Shown: positions 15,384 through 24,231, counted from the stretch's first letter. The stretch is 64,000 bases of DNA from Candidatus Nitrospira kreftii (GCA_014058405.1 CP047423.1:2712501-2776500); one strand, 5' to 3'. The notes: generated by a model from the letters alone, not told the origin. Numbers and translations are program-made.

Positions 15384-18353
15384 TCAGACCTTCTGCGTTC
15401 GTTGCGCTTTTTCCAATTCCGCCAATTCTTCCGCTTCATCCTGGAGCCGCTCGCCACCCTCTTCTGCCGGCATAAACTGCTGAACCCGCGTGTTGCCGCT
15501 ATCGACGACAAAAACGCTCCCTCTCGCATCGACCGCGATCCCATAGGGAAAATTGAATTGTCCGTCACCATTCCCGAATCCGCCCCACTGGGTCATGAAA
15601 TTCCCCTCTCGGTCGAATTTCTCGATTCGGTGATTGCCTGTATCCGTCACATAGACATCGCCTGCTCCATCGACGGTGATCCCCCATGGGGAACGCAATT
15701 GCCCGGCCTCTTGAGCCAAGGGACTGCTGGCATGCCCGGCTGCCGGACTGCCACCCCACTTCGTCAACAGCTGCGGCAACACGTTCGTGCTGGTATCAAA
15801 TTTCTGGATCCGATGATTCCCCATGTCGACGACATATACCGATCCATCTTCCTGATCGACCGCCACTCCACGTGGAAAATAGAACTGTCCGTCCCCGTTC
15901 CCGAAGCTGCCCCAGGCCATGATGAATTCACCGGTCATGTCGAACTTCTGAACGCGGAAATTGGCGCTATCGACGACGTAGAGATAGCCTCGCACACGGT
16001 CAACCGCAATCCCCCAGGGAGCATTAAACTGTCCCTCTCCGTTCCCCCGTGAGCCGAACTTCATCATGTACCCGCCCAGCTTACCGTCGAACTTTTGCAC
16101 GCGATGATTATTCGTATCCACAACCCAGACGTCGCCCTTCCCGTCGCAGGCCATGCCGGTGGGATTATGAAAGTTGGCGTTCGCCGAACCGAAGTTTCCC
16201 CAGAGGATGATGAAATTTCCCGCATTGTCGAACTTTTGAATCCGATTGTTTCCGTTGTCGACGACGAACAGCGATCCCTGCTGATCGACGGTAAGTCCGT
16301 ACATCGGCGCCATAAATTCTCCGCCATGCAAGAGCGAGGCGCCACGTCCAGGCTTCCCCCATTTGGCCACACACAGATATCCGGAGGTATTGACAAGAAT
16401 CGTCGCGGTAGCCGGTGTCGAAACGTTGTTGCCGATGTCTTTGAACCATACGTAAATCGTCTTTTGCCCGTCCGCCGGAGAGAGGATAAATGGAATGGTC
16501 GCCCCGAACTTGATTGCCGACGCCACATCCACCCAGCCCGGCGTGCCGGCCATCGGAGTCAAGGGGCTCTCGGAAATGAAGTAGGCGCCGACCCCTGTGT
16601 CCAAATCGGTGGCCGAGATTGTCACGACGACATCCGGCGAGTTCGTCATGAACGCTCCATGATTGATAACGGCATAGGGGTTCTGCGGCGCTGTAATATC
16701 AATGAGCACAGGCATCGCCGTCACTTCTTCTGATAGTCCACTTTCCGTCCCGTCTTCGAACGCGGCCGTCACGGCATAAAAGTAGGGCGTATCGTTCGTG
16801 AGGCCCTCATGTGTATAAGGATTCGTCACGCCTTCGATCTTGGTGGCACCCTGAACCGTGATATGAGGAGAGGTACTAAAATAGAGGTTATAGGACTGGG
16901 CACCCGGCACTTCCATCCAACTCAAAAAGACCTCTGTGTCGCCGGCTTTCACCGCAAGACTGCGGGGAGGCTGTACCGATCCAGCTTCCATCACCTGTGT
17001 AGGCTGCTCCTTCCCACGATTCATCTCCTCTTCCGTCGGCACATACTTGAGAACGCGGTTGTTCCCACTGTCGACGACGAACACGCCACCTTCCCTGTCC
17101 AGAGCGATCCCGTAGGGGAAGTTGAGCTGTCCCTCGGTCTTTCCACGATTACCGAACGAACAGAGGAAGGTCCCGTTGCCGTCGAACTTCTGAATTCGGT
17201 GATTCCCGCTGTCGACGACATAGACGTTACCCAGCGCATCGCAAGCGATGCCCCACGGCGACTTGAACTGCCCCGGTCCACTCCCCTCGCGTCCCCACTT
17301 TGTCAAGAAACTTCCGCGTGTATCGAACTTCTGGATACGATTGTTGCTCTCGTCGGCTACATAAATATTGCCGACGAAATCTACCGCCACGCCGCGCGGG
17401 AAAAAGAACGCGCCGTCAAAACTACCGTCGCGTCCCCACTTTAACAGCGGTTGGCCATCGGCTTGAAACTTTTGAATGCGCGCATTGCTGGTGTCAGAGA
17501 CATAGACATTCCCGTCTTGATCGGTGGTAATCCCCCACGGCACGTCGAAGCGGCCCATATCGGCTCCGCGCCAGGCGAATCCAAACTTACCCCAGGCTTT
17601 CTGCACATTGCCTTCCAGGTCGAACTTTTGGACACGATTGTTTCCGCTATCGGCCACGTACACCACGTCGTCTGGTCCGACCGCGAGCCCCCGAGGATAG
17701 TAAAACTGGCCTTCCTGCGAACTGGGCTCGCCACCCCATCGAGCCAAGAACGTTCCGGTCTTATCGAATTTTTGGATCGAATGATTGTCAGTATCGGCCA
17801 CATACATATTGCTGTCTTTGTCGAGTGCAATCCCCGTGGGCGAACTGAACTCACCATCATCTACACCCTCTTGACCAATAACCATGGCCAACAGATAGGG
17901 TGAAGGGATCGCCATCACTTCTTGCGACTCAAGACTTTCCCCCTTCGATGTGACCACTGTCACAACATAGTGGTAACAGGTCCCATTGGCGAGATCGTCG
18001 TGAACATAGGGACTCGTCGGGCCCTCGATACACGTAGCCTTATCTTTTTTTACACCGATGACACTCTTGAAATCGTCGGCACCGGCGATGGGACGAGTGA
18101 GCTCAGAAAACTTGATCTGCACACCCTTCGTCGTCTGGAAATAGAGGTTATAGTACATGGCGTCCGGGACCGGATCCCATGTGATGGTAATACGTCCGTT
18201 ACCGGGTTTGGCCTGGACATTCTGCGGCGGAGATGGCAGTTCCTCCGCTTCCGCTACCGAATCCCCGCCGCCCCATTCATCTTGAATCCCTTCAATAAAC
18301 AGACGGAACCGATCGGCATACCACATTGCATCGAATAGCCAAGATTTCATCAC
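15384..18353 (-). CDS. Double NHL-propeller protein with fibronectin-type domains
   Basis: A 989-residue protein. The order is: a short N-terminal helix region, an FN3-like domain ([20 protein letters not shown]), six NHL repeats (~170-450), a second FN3-like domain ([18 protein letters not shown]), an Ig-like stretch with [14 protein letters not shown], then six more NHL repeats (~660-970). Each repeat carries the P-x-G-I-A-x-D ... V-x-D-x-x-N-x-R-I-Q-K-F signature, so two six-bladed propellers are predicted. No signal peptide is visible, so its location is uncertain. It sits ten bases upstream of guaB, an unusual partner. A role as binding or scaffold protein is inference. Confidence 0.85.
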
Positions 18354-20557: not shown

Positions 20558-21553
20558 CTACCGCTGTACCCTGAGGATCGGACCGAGGGTCAGCCACTTC
20601 GTCGGACCCAAGGCCGCCATATGTGGCAAGTGGGCGACATACCAGAACACGACGTCTTGCTCCTGCACCCCTTGATTGTCCTCGTCATACCCCAGTTGTC
20701 CACGGGCGCCGAATGCCCAGGGCACATCCTCACTGGCATTGGCACGACGAATGGCCACATCGAGGTCGGCAAATTTGTCTCGCTTGCCGTCATCTTTCAG
20801 CGGCACGTACCCGGTGCCGGGTAAAATCCAGACGCCATGACCATTCATTTGGTCTCGGACCAACCAAGTCTTGTTAAGTCCTGAAATTTTGACGTCGTTC
20901 TGCTCATTCGAATACTTCCGCCATCCTGGCCCCCAGCCCCGGTCTGGCCCTCCCTCTTCATGAACGAAGACCTGATCCATACCGTTACCATTGATATCAA
21001 AATCGAACCGCCAATATGGGTGGTGGTCATGATTGGTGTTACACGACAAGCCTCGGCTATGCAGCACGGGACGAAGCTCGCCGTCATCCGACAGGTGCCA
21101 GGCTTGATACAAATGATATTCGCCGATCCGAGCATAAATCCCCAATTCGAGCCATTTCACATTATGCTGCGTCGAGCTTTCCATACAGACTTTCTGATCA
21201 CCGCAATTCATGATCGGCACGAGATCCTGCCACCGCAGCCGATCTTGAAACGGGCCGCAGCGCCCGCTCTCAGCTCGTGACCCGAACCAGGTGAAGGGAT
21301 TCCACCAAACCATCTCTTTCACATATTTCACACGGACGACCGGCATGCTGGCCTTATTCAGAATCAGCTCATCGGCAAACTTCACGTTTCGCAATGCCAA
21401 ACCCGTATTGTCCCTCACTTCCCAGTCGAAGCTCCACCTCCCCCAATCCACATGTTCGGACTGCGTCTCGGCCACAGCAGGCCCTGACCACGCCAAGACA
21501 GCGAGCATGAACCAGCCGATGAACCAGATACGCTTCATCTCATTCCTTTTCAC
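20558..21553 (-). CDS. Copper-amine-oxidase-like catalytic domain, exported
   Basis: A 331-residue protein with a signal peptide ending about AVA (28). By pattern it matches the catalytic domain of copper amine oxidases: WGRWSFDWEVRDNTGLAL at the start, the TPQ-cofactor segment at 144-160 (IGEYHLYQAWHLSDDGEL, candidate Tyr146), copper ligands His175 and His177 in NHDHHPYWRFDFDING, and the third ligand His311 in DVVFWYVAHLPH. The N-Y-D/E consensus around the cofactor tyrosine reads E-Y-H and the usual base Asp appears as Glu95, so oxidase activity is uncertain. It overlaps the upstream gene by four bases; that gene holds the missing N-terminal domains. Confidence 0.65.
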   Translation of the reverse strand: MKRNEMKRIWFIGWFMLAVLAWSGPAVAETQSEHVDWGRWSFDWEVRDNTGLALRNVKFADELILNKASMPVVRVKYVKEMVWWNPFTWFGSRAESGRCGPFQDRLRWQDLVPIMNCGDQKVCMESSTQHNVKWLELGIYARIGEYHLYQAWHLSDDGELRPVLHSRGLSCNTNHDHHPYWRFDFDINGNGMDQVFVHEEGGPDRGWGPGWRKYSNEQNDVKISGLNKTWLVRDQMNGHGVWILPGTGYVPLKDDGKRDKFADLDVAIRRANASEDVPWAFGARGQLGYDEDNQGVQEQDVVFWYVAHLPHMAALGPTKWLTLGPILRVQR

Positions 21554-22335
21554 GAACGAGGCGGCTCCTCTCCGGCCTCAAGCACTTTGTCTTCCGTCAA
21601 ATCGACCACCGCCCAGTATTTCGGATCGCCGTCCTGCCCTTTTGAAAAGGTAATCCAAATGGTCCGGTGTCCATACCCTGGATCGTTCCTGAAGAACCCG
21701 CCATCGGGTTGCATAAGGAGTCCGTGACCTTGGAGCTGATCGACCTTGCCGACCAAGCGTGGATCGGCTTTGGCCAGTTCAATCCCCCGTTGAACATCCT
21801 GTCGTCCCTCCGGGGGCTGATACCTCTCAAGGCGGGCGACGTTGAGCACACCTGTCTCTTTCAGACGGACTTCTACGGCAACATTCTGGCTGTAGCTATA
21901 ATAGACGAGACGAACAAGGCCGGTGGTCTGCCGACAGCAACCGAACGTGACCTTGCCTTCCGGCGGAATCCGATCAGCGTCAATGAAAGCCCATCGGGAG
22001 CCCAGTAGCGTGGCGACGCGGCGATCGCTTTCGGCGGCTTTCCGTAATGTCACAACGTCCTCTGCGGTCAGGATGGCGGAGGTATTCGTGGCGCGCTTCG
22101 CACCTGCGTCTTGAATGGTCCCGGCCATCTTCGGTTTGTGGTGACCAGCGATATCCTCACCGGAAAACTGGAACACATGCGGGACAGGAGGCTTTTCTGG
22201 GAGTGCTATTTTCTGAACGGCGGTTTCAGGATCCTCGGGCCCGAACGGTCCCCGTGAACCGGCATTGAGGCTGCAGCCATAACCGAGGCCGATTGCTACG
22301 AAGCAGACGGTCCGCATGGTGATCCAACTGCTCAT
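21550..22335 (-). CDS. Amine-oxidase N2/N3-domain-like exported protein
   Basis: A 261-residue protein with a hydrophobic N-terminus and Cys21 in a loose lipobox (GLGYGC). From ~85 it follows the N2/N3 domains of copper amine oxidases: LTAEDVVTLRKAAES, a short beta region (RLVYYSYSQNVAVEVRL), then LERYQPPEGRQDVQRGIELAKADPRLVGK, and at the end KYWAVVDLTEDKVLEAGEE, the strand that normally leads into the catalytic domain. The protein stops at that domain boundary, and the catalytic part follows in the next, overlapping gene. So one oxidase-like protein appears split in two. The assignment is by pattern and needs a profile search. Confidence 0.5.
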   Translation of the reverse strand: MSSWITMRTVCFVAIGLGYGCSLNAGSRGPFGPEDPETAVQKIALPEKPPVPHVFQFSGEDIAGHHKPKMAGTIQDAGAKRATNTSAILTAEDVVTLRKAAESDRRVATLLGSRWAFIDADRIPPEGKVTFGCCRQTTGLVRLVYYSYSQNVAVEVRLKETGVLNVARLERYQPPEGRQDVQRGIELAKADPRLVGKVDQLQGHGLLMQPDGGFFRNDPGYGHRTIWITFSKGQDGDPKYWAVVDLTEDKVLEAGEEPPRS

Positions 22336-22847
22336 GCCAACTTTCCAGCAATCCCTATGGCCAATTTGGAAATTTTCGCCGCCGCCTTGATCACGGCCGC
22401 ACGCTTCTTGCGTGAGGCAGCATCCAGCACGGCTTCCTTCATGAGCTCTTTGTAGGTCTTGATCTCGTCCCGAGTGAACGGAACGATTTGCGAGATGGTC
22501 CCGTTATTAAAGGTGTTGGCCAGCTGCAAGTACAGATTGGAGATTTCTGCCGCATAAATCCCACGACGAAGTGGATCATTCTTATAGGTTTCAAATTTCT
22601 TCCGGAGCGTCCCCACCGCTTCGAGAAGTGCCTTCTGGCGAATCTTGGTTTCGTCTTGCTTACTCACCTCAAATTCCACCGCCCCCAACTGATCGACCAA
22701 CACCTTCGCTTCTTCGCGGGCATGATCGACTTGGACCGACAGATCGGAGATTTCCTGACTTGCACTTTCCGCGGTTTCCATGAGCTGTTTGATAAGGCTG
22801 TCGTTGCCTTCCAAAAAACCGACGACTCCCGCGATACTGGTCTCCAT
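22332..22847 (-). CDS. Helical hypothetical protein (split-oxidase operon)
   Basis: A 171-residue, almost entirely helical protein with no signal peptide. Residues 20-75 are a heptad-like coiled coil (MTETAESA..., DLSVQVDHAREEAKVLVDQL), followed by KKFETYKNDPLRRGIYAAEISNLYLQLANTF and a basic C-terminal helix (SRKKRAAVIKAAAKISKLAIGIAGK) that could lie on a membrane. I recognise no family. The stop overlaps the next gene's start by four bases, and ten bases separate it from the lipoprotein gene upstream. Confidence 0.7.
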   Translation of the reverse strand: METSIAGVVGFLEGNDSLIKQLMETAESASQEISDLSVQVDHAREEAKVLVDQLGAVEFEVSKQDETKIRQKALLEAVGTLRKKFETYKNDPLRRGIYAAEISNLYLQLANTFNNGTISQIVPFTRDEIKTYKELMKEAVLDAASRKKRAAVIKAAAKISKLAIGIAGKLA

Positions 22848-22857
22848 GGTGCCTCCT

Positions 22858-23568
22858 CTATTGCCCGTCGTCTTTCTTCAGGTTATCCAGAAGGTCGACC
22901 AAGTCGGCTGTGAACGTACGCCCGCGCTGCAGAGCCCTTGAGCGGATGATGCGCGAGCTGGTGACCTCCTCCAGCGCATCATTGACGGTCCGCGAATGAT
23001 TGACGATCTCCATGATGCGGTCTGACGGTCCCGGCGCGTGCTCAACCACAGCCGCCACAAACTCAGGATCGACGGAGGCCAAGCCAGACTTGTCGGCATA
23101 GCGTTTCAACTGCGCGTGAATCGCCGCCGTATATTTCCAGGACTCGTTCAAAGCATTGGCAGTATCGCGGAGCCCGCAGAAATCTTCTTCAAATTGATCC
23201 CACACGACCTTCTCCAAACCCTGATAGTCGTCCAAATACATTTGTCCGACCAGATACGCGGCGGCGTAGGCGGCCTCTCCCTTCTTGCCGCTGATATTCC
23301 GGTAGGGCGCGAGGACGAACTGATGCTTCGCTTCCTGAGCCTGCAAGGCCTTAAAACTCTCGTGCAGCGCACTGCGGGACTGCTCTAAAAACTTGATCCG
23401 CGCTTCAGTTTCTTTTTGGAACAGATCGATGTTCGTCTGAGCCGCATCGATCTTCGTGCCTTCCATCCTGAGCAGATCGCGAACCGCACTGCTATGAATT
23501 GCGTTGCAGCCGACTGCACTGAATAGAATGAACCCGAGGCTCACAACCGTGACTGTGTGTGAGATCAT
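22858..23568 (-). CDS. Helical lipoprotein of unknown function (split-oxidase operon)
   Basis: A 236-residue protein with a lipoprotein signal: hydrophobic VVSLGFILF then SAVGC (Cys21). The mature part is helical: a coiled coil at ~35-80 (EGTKIDAAQTNIDLF, EQSRSALHESFKALQAQE), an AAYAAAYLVGQMYLDDYQGLEKV stretch, then ESWKYTAAIHAQLKRY. A C-terminal helix is basic then acidic. It has no family I recognise; it is the second gene of the five-gene minus-strand operon. Confidence 0.7.
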   Translation of the reverse strand: MISHTVTVVSLGFILFSAVGCNAIHSSAVRDLLRMEGTKIDAAQTNIDLFQKETEARIKFLEQSRSALHESFKALQAQEAKHQFVLAPYRNISGKKGEAAYAAAYLVGQMYLDDYQGLEKVVWDQFEEDFCGLRDTANALNESWKYTAAIHAQLKRYADKSGLASVDPEFVAAVVEHAPGPSDRIMEIVNHSRTVNDALEEVTSSRIIRSRALQRGRTFTADLVDLLDNLKKDDGQ

Positions 23569-23598
23569 ACTGATTTCCTCCCTCTCAGGAGCGTTCTC

Positions 23599-24231
23599 TT
23601 ATCGGCGTAATGTGCGCACGGCCTCCGCGATGGACTGAACCTCATCGCGGGGCAGTGTGACATCAACATCCAGATATTGCTTAATGATCGCGTTGATTCG
23701 GCGAAGCGCCCCCACGTTGGTGCGATACTGATCGAAAGCCGTCAAATCCAGGGTCGAGGAGGCTTGGGAGTCTTTCCTGACGCGCTGCTCGATCCGACTG
23801 AGGAGTTCCGGCAGTCGCTGCAGAAGGTTCGACATGTCCCCGGTGCCAGACTGAAAGACGATCTGTCCATTCGGCCCTTTTCGGTCTGGAAGATTTTTGA
23901 GCCGAATCTCGTTGATGAACGCAATAACCTCAGGCCCCAGTAACTCGGCGTCATCGTTGGCCAGTTCCGCGTCCGCCACGTCGGCCAACTTCGGGTTGGT
24001 CGTAGCCCATTGCAGCGCCAAGTTCAGTTTGAGGCGGGTTTGGACATGGCGATACCACTGTTGATGCCGTTCGGTGACATGACTCACCAACTCGCGGTAT
24101 TGCTCCATCAGCCGCTGATTCTCGGCATACGCCTGGTCTTTGGCGACCAACGCCTGTTTCACTTCAGGCGGAGTGGCGCACCCGAGACAGACCAGACTCA
24201 GCGCCACAATGAGGATATACGCCGCTTTCAT
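23599..24231 (-). CDS. Helical lipoprotein, first gene of split-oxidase operon
   Basis: A 210-residue protein. Start ATG 24231 has GGAGGAAAC just before it and gives the lipoprotein signal MKAAYILIVALSLVCLGC (Cys18); the longer frame upstream lacks a ribosome site. The mature part is helical (KQALVAKDQAYAENQRLMEQYREL, then HQQWYRHVQTRLKLNLALQW). The C-terminal half ends LPELLSRIEQRVRKD and DVTLPRDEVQSIAEAVRTLRR. It shares the lipoprotein-plus-coiled-coil style with the next gene, without clear sequence similarity. Confidence 0.7.
   Translation of the reverse strand: MKAAYILIVALSLVCLGCATPPEVKQALVAKDQAYAENQRLMEQYRELVSHVTERHQQWYRHVQTRLKLNLALQWATTNPKLADVADAELANDDAELLGPEVIAFINEIRLKNLPDRKGPNGQIVFQSGTGDMSNLLQRLPELLSRIEQRVRKDSQASSTLDLTAFDQYRTNVGALRRINAIIKQYLDVDVTLPRDEVQSIAEAVRTLRR

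Follow-up and report, generated by a model that had tools for sequence, protein, structure and literature searches.

The window, a 64,000-nt stretch of Candidatus Nitrospira kreftii (GCA_014058405.1 CP047423.1:2712501-2776500), contains an operon of five genes, P0005 to P0001, on the minus strand (Table 1). An earlier sequence-only reading had placed five reading frames at these coordinates and in this order, with two four-base overlaps and a summed length of 592 residues for the last two products; all of this was recovered, the overlaps being ATGA and GTGA and the sum 261 + 331 residues. That reading was also right to take products 1 and 2 for lipoproteins and product 3 for a helical protein. 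By motif, product 4 (P0002, lipobox-like C21) is likewise a lipoprotein and product 3 is not. The lipobox cysteines of P0005 (C18) and P0004 (C21) are each invariant in nine of nine aligned relatives, and P0003 looks helical on inspection and lacks a signal peptide. None of P0003, P0004 and P0005 belongs to a known family in Pfam, NCBIfam or the PDB sequences; the P0003 family matched Hbl B weakly (E 0.086), which was taken as chance. The start codon of P0001 is GTG, with an ATG at residue 6 as a possible alternative. By inspection, P0001 has its own Sec-type signal peptide of about residues 1-28, ending in AVA/ET, as had been claimed for it.

Table 1. Genes, overlaps and active-site codons of the operon (coordinates count from the first base of the window).
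Feature	Position	Strand	Evidence or remark
Five-gene operon	20558-24231	-	Gene order P0005, P0004, P0003, P0002, P0001
P0005, helical lipoprotein, 210 aa	23599..24231	-	Lipobox C18
P0004, helical lipoprotein, 236 aa	22858..23568	-	Lipobox C21
P0003, helical protein, 171 aa, without signal peptide	22332..22847	-	By inspection
ATGA overlap, P0003 stop / P0002 start	22332..22335	-	4 bases
P0002, N2+N3 (D2+D3)-like lipoprotein, 261 aa	21550..22335	-	AF2, Foldseek, structure alignment, hhalign
GTGA overlap, P0002 stop / P0001 start	21550..21553	-	4 bases
P0001, predicted CAO catalytic domain (D4-like), 331 aa	20558..21553	-	Pfam, AF2, Foldseek, structure alignment
Y77 codon, counterpart of AGAO Tyr284 / HPAO Tyr305	21323..21325	-	Aligned to canonical VPY Tyr; 45/46 relatives
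D104 codon, probable catalytic-base Asp	21242..21244	-	45/46 relatives
Y146 codon, topaquinone-precursor Tyr position	21116..21118	-	Aligned with TynA Y496; 46/46 relatives
H175 codon, first Cu-ligand His of HxH	21029..21031	-	Aligned with TynA H554; 46/46 relatives
H177 codon, second Cu-ligand His	21023..21025	-	Aligned with TynA H556; 45/46 relatives
H311 codon, third Cu-ligand His	20621..20623	-	Aligned with TynA H719; 45/46 relatives

All five genes are under strong purifying selection, with dN/dS of 0.04-0.15 against five relatives, several of which are near synonymous saturation. These ratios, together with conservation, speak against chance open reading frames, which were rejected. Promoter and terminator scans returned signals no commoner than in shuffled sequence.

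By predicted fold, P0001 is a copper amine oxidase (CAO) catalytic domain. Its AlphaFold2 (AF2) model (pLDDT 88.7, pTM 0.88) retrieved CAOs as all of the best 50 Foldseek matches (E ~1e-14) and superimposed on AGAO residues 235-616 with a Z of 29.2 over 274 residues (rmsd 2.4), in agreement with the catalytic-domain pattern that had been recognised in product 5. P0001 scored 34.9 bits against Pfam PF01179 (cut-off 27), the best stretch being just residues 31-83. A profile built from 46 P0001 relatives (A2) matched the PDB amine oxidases at E 2e-16 across positions 5-278, near full length, and hhalign of the catalytic part against CAO gave E 2.8e-16. The D4 antiparallel beta-sandwich of the CAO superfamily is present in the predicted P0001 model according to Foldseek, VIA-align and the profile.

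P0002 is matched by no Pfam model. Its AF2 model (pLDDT 82.7) consists of two alpha+beta cystatin-like domains, each a helix and four strands; Foldseek ranks 1-30 in the PDB were CAOs only, and the model superimposed on residues 96-285 of E. coli CAO (Z 10.6) and on AGAO 12-196 (Z ~9.3). The hhalign match of its N2/N3 part had an E of 1e-4 and a probability of only 55%. By predicted structure, P0002 is the N2+N3 (D2, D3) pair of the CAO superfamily, here a separate chain. The two models jointly cover AGAO residues 12-196 and 235-616; thus mainly the linker is absent, and the gene boundary corresponds to the linker that joins N3 to the catalytic domain (AGAO 196 to 235). The predicted structures describe a CAO split cleanly at the boundary of support and catalytic domains, on two proteins that each carry an export signal. 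Structure prediction of each chain separately, the check proposed with the sequence-only reading, returned a CAO fold for both, and the N2/N3 pattern it had assigned to product 4, ending at a domain boundary, was borne out.

The active site of P0001

All six active-site residues in Table 1 are retained in 45 of the 46 relatives, and five of their columns rank within the 25 most conserved of 281 (chance ~4e-6). The sole exception is L121, from Kofleriaceae, in which Y77, D104, H177 and H311 are all changed. This pair (L121:787-1584), with four of the six positions altered, is a natural dead or altered copy. Sequence alignment places D104 on TynA D431 and not on the known base D413; because D413 is missed, D104 stays unproven as the base of catalysis, which it likely is.

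Around the topaquinone Tyr position P0001 reads R-I-G-E-Y-H (E145, H147) and departs from the T-x-x-N-Y-D/E consensus. The flanking residues vary across the subfamily, and the NYD core occurs in one Nitrospira paralogue, L040. In AGAO, the N381A mutation of the Asn before the Tyr lowers the rate of topaquinone formation to ~1/180 and kcat to ~1/160; topaquinone is still made (PMC9491219). The altered P0001 motif may therefore reduce activity without excluding it.

The spacings between active-site residues are 42 (Asp-Tyr), 29 (Tyr-His) and 134 (His-His) in P0001, compared with 83, 58 and 163 in TynA, which points to a trimmed catalytic half, perhaps at the dimer arms. This half comprises 303 residues versus ~380 in AGAO, most of the shortening falling between D104 and Y146; the Asp-Tyr spacing hints that the arm region is perhaps shortened relative to TynA.

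The two chains could also form a CAO fold that binds copper without topaquinone, or is non-catalytic, and serves as a copper-binding or copper-sensing scaffold of the envelope. Such a role would be in keeping with the off-consensus neighbours of the Tyr (E145, H147), AGAO catalysis depending strongly on the Asn, and the accessory domains of relatives (P-domain, dockerin, sorting tails) suit an adhesive or structural protein. Copper binding alone, however, would need neither the Tyr, conserved without exception in the 46 relatives, nor the retained Asp and second active-site Tyr. L121, with two His lost, lacks that Asp and that second Tyr as well, and this joint loss is the pattern expected for a site kept for catalysis. 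We consider a scaffold unlikely, if still deserving of weight.

The operon and its helical partners in Nitrospira

The full five-gene order, whose conservation in relatives had been proposed as a check, is intact in ~32 named Nitrospira/Nitrospiraceae loci. Among 296 Nitrospirota genomes, 35 encode a P0001 orthologue together with P0004 (P0001 being in two pieces in G094). Two have P0001 without P0004 (G055, G284), two have P0004 at decayed loci with no intact P0001 (G024, G016), and G152 and G295 have only P0001 fragments. P0003-P0005 are confined to Nitrospira-type genomes, where they are nearly always found with the oxidase pair. The pair of P0002 and P0001 families (F2 and F1) is present without helical partners in many genomes, and at locus L081 a distance of 3.4 kb separates an F5-F4-F3 module from the F2-F1 pair, which is on the opposite strand. 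F5-F4-F3 and F2-F1 can thus be described as two modules, co-travelling yet separable.

P0001/P0002 are broken or missing at L036:6454-6636 and L106:7421-8413, where P0004 and P0005 remain, with P0003 in addition at L106. G003 has an empty site, with cytochrome c and methyltransferase genes adjoining and no trace of the operon. The operon is missing in many Nitrospira and decayed in some; its function is therefore dispensable. The earlier proposal of an oxidase held by helical lipoproteins found no support: F2-F1 often occurs on its own, the modules are parted in L081, and decayed loci keep P0004 with P0001 broken. P0003-P0005 are probably accessory envelope components exclusive to the Nitrospira-type version.

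The near-constant company of P0003-P0005 in Nitrospira could also mean that a topaquinone enzyme oxidises lysines of envelope proteins to cross-link or mark them, with P0003-P0005 as its substrates or holders. The yeast lysyl oxidase PPLO is itself a CAO and matches the P0001 model with a Z of 25. PPLO is, however, no closer than other CAOs, and related pairs occur without P0003-P0005, some of them cytoplasmic, so that we judge this activity improbable.

Two further genes lie beside the operon. A 989-aa protein with NHL repeats and fn3, encoded at 15384-18353, adjoins it and is conserved in the genus. P0006 (19157-19687) is a small exported c-type cytochrome, of which relatives have intact, shortened or decayed copies. 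P0006 as an obligate electron acceptor was rejected; such a role is unsupported because P0006 is present without the operon in G002, G003, G004, G011 and G032 and is undetected or fragmentary in the operon genomes G001, G010 and G013.

Two-chain and one-chain forms across phyla

One scan of species genomes yielded 78 loci. Adjacent two-gene pairs were found in Nitrospirota, Pseudomonadota, Planctomycetota, Rhodothermota and Actinomycetota. The P0002-family gene comes immediately before its P0001-family partner in Nitrospirota, Chromatiales, Rheinheimera, Granulosicoccaceae, Gemmataceae and Rhodothermales, and also in Acidimicrobiales, Streptomyces, Nocardia and Saccharothrix. F2 and F1 are neighbours in split loci where the contig holds both; at L095 (Nevskiales) a P0002-like gene was looked for and not found. 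The 4-base overlap of the two genes is seen again in several phyla. A one-chain form occurs in Bacilli, Nonomuraea, Acidobacteria, Chloroflexi and others. Three of 247 genomes in an Actinomycetes sample carry the subfamily, and its members, where checked, are annotated as 'hypothetical protein' or not at all. A match on a Microvirga ossetica plasmid covers two neighbouring 'hypothetical proteins', the first of which may be a P0002 counterpart.

In a tree built by a quick method with SH-aLRT support only, and leaving out the Variovorax form, the one-chain forms make up a single clade of 17 and the split forms fall within a clade of 32 (support 87), from which the long-branched L121 stands apart. 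Either state, split or one-chain, may be the ancestral one. A later fusion is found inside the split clade, where Nocardia crassostreae L098, an in-frame join with an added linker, stands beside the split pair of N. colli (L102).

With N-termini read by eye, and leaving aside L094 with its incomplete F2, signals were found on both chains (exported pairs) or on neither (cytoplasmic pairs), and no mixed pair was seen. L088 and L092 have evident signals by eye, though crude automatic scoring made them cytoplasmic. Distances within the two families are correlated between the chains (r 0.93; 0 of 5000 permutations), a correlation of which shared descent could produce part. Adjacency, matched compartments and the one-chain sister clade support indirectly that the two chains belong together, as the sequence-only reading had proposed for its two-chain oxidase-like protein.

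The same evidence bears on the idea that P0002 and P0001, of common CAO ancestry, now do separate work. We find this very improbable, since the genes adjoin and overlap by 4 bases in different phyla, the compartments match and one-chain relatives exist. That the two genes are relics of a frameshifted or decaying CAO gene would suit the visible decay of the locus in a few genomes (G024, G016, L106), but is hardly credible, since start and export signal are separate for the two chains, dN/dS values are small and several phyla share the split; purifying selection and breadth led us to reject it for this window.

Several members of the subfamily depart from the simple pair. Two Nitrospira genomes also encode a single-chain, signal-less form (L041:7713-9365 and L042:7953-9572), and G012 has four subfamily members altogether. 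The exported P0001 relatives L040:7122-8591, L091:7920-9125, L090:7922-12043 and L104:7920-9827 have additional C-terminal parts; these additions include a P-domain, dockerin and TSP3 repeats, a T9SS sorting tail and an Ig-like domain. Outside Nitrospira, no conserved neighbour that would reveal the substrate was found. A beta-lactamase-fold protein recurs beside the Nonomuraea and Sporosarcina single-chain forms only, with no clear meaning.

A probable two-chain amine oxidase and its known relatives

We consider it probable that P0002 and P0001 each supply half of a single copper amine oxidase, a lipoprotein-anchored Cu/topaquinone enzyme of two chains. Most likely it represents an uncharacterised CAO subfamily, one that is shorter than the classical CAOs and in which the T-x-x-N-Y-D/E motif is relaxed. 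We infer as follows how it assembles, which metal and cofactor it uses, its chemistry and substrate, the loss of arms and what P0003-P0005 do. P0002 would be exported and lipidated and would then anchor the N2/N3 (D2/D3) half to a membrane; P0001 would be exported to the periplasm and bind to P0002 as the catalytic (D4) half. H175, H177 and H311 of P0001 would bind Cu(II), Y146 would be self-oxidised to topaquinone, and a primary amine, free or peptidyl, would be oxidatively deaminated to aldehyde, NH3 and H2O2. Besides tethering the enzyme, P0002 would complete its fold and substrate channel. Positions 155 and 156 of HPAO are, we presume, located in D3. Both are among the substrate-channel positions of that enzyme (PMC3382800).

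Given the shortening at the possible dimer arms, P0002 and P0001 may work as a heterodimer instead of as the classical homodimer. The fuller picture of a heteromeric topaquinone oxidase with a separate lipoprotein N2/N3 and no arm-exchanged homodimer, in a Nitrospira envelope complex with P0003-P0005, is tentative and on balance doubtful. As for substrate and role, the release of NH3 and H2O2 from free amines is a guess, and so is an oxidation of protein lysines. According to one study, Ca. Nitrospira encodes and transcribes an amine oxidase, of a kind left unspecified in the abstract (PMC11327836).

The topaquinone (TPQ) CAOs (EC 1.4.3.21; AGAO, E. coli TynA, HPAO; PF01179) have the N2, N3 and catalytic folds that are predicted here for the two chains, and share with P0001 the His triad, the TPQ-Tyr position and the second, strictly conserved active-site Tyr. 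They are, however, one polypeptide of 70-80 kDa with D2-D4, whereas here two genes encode two chains of 261 and 331 aa, the N-terminal half is a lipoprotein of its own, the catalytic half has ~303 instead of ~380 residues and the Tyr consensus is relaxed. The homodimer of a TPQ-CAO has two exchanged beta-hairpin arms. As of a 2012 review, every structurally characterised CAO was a homodimer whose 70-80 kDa subunits exchange arms (PMC3382800); the scope of a 2025 CuAO 'tree of life' is plants and animals only.

Closer relatives are the single-chain short CAO-like proteins of Bacillus, Nonomuraea, Acidobacteria, Chloroflexi and Variovorax plasmids, which belong to the same subfamily by profile and tree and join an N2/N3-like to a catalytic part with the same active-site residues as the split pair. 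In contrast to that pair, they are mostly 515-580 aa long, lack a signal peptide, are presumably cytoplasmic and form a separate clade. The Variovorax plasmid form (L246:4004-5593) is annotated 'hypothetical protein' and adjoins a galactose-oxidase-like gene. The actinobacterial L150 and L155 and the Chromatiales L151 resemble P0001 in their PF01179 match and HxH-type motif, but are longer, belong to another subfamily and seemingly consist of the catalytic domain alone. L151:1107-2519 and L156:1483-2709 are tandem CAO-like genes of a Chromatiales genome, both seemingly catalytic-only and the second apparently without HxH. No description of a two-gene CAO was found in the literature searched, mainly its open-access part. 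The earlier statement that no such system is known stays true of the five-gene set, but the two-gene oxidase occurs widely and lies within the CAO superfamily.

A natural two-chain CAO, exported as well as cytoplasmic, found in several phyla and accompanied by a one-chain sister clade, offers a test of the purpose of N2/N3 and the dimer arms, and of how much latitude the topaquinone-forming motif allows. In Nitrospira, the oxidase could supply the envelope with NH3, H2O2 and aldehyde from amines.
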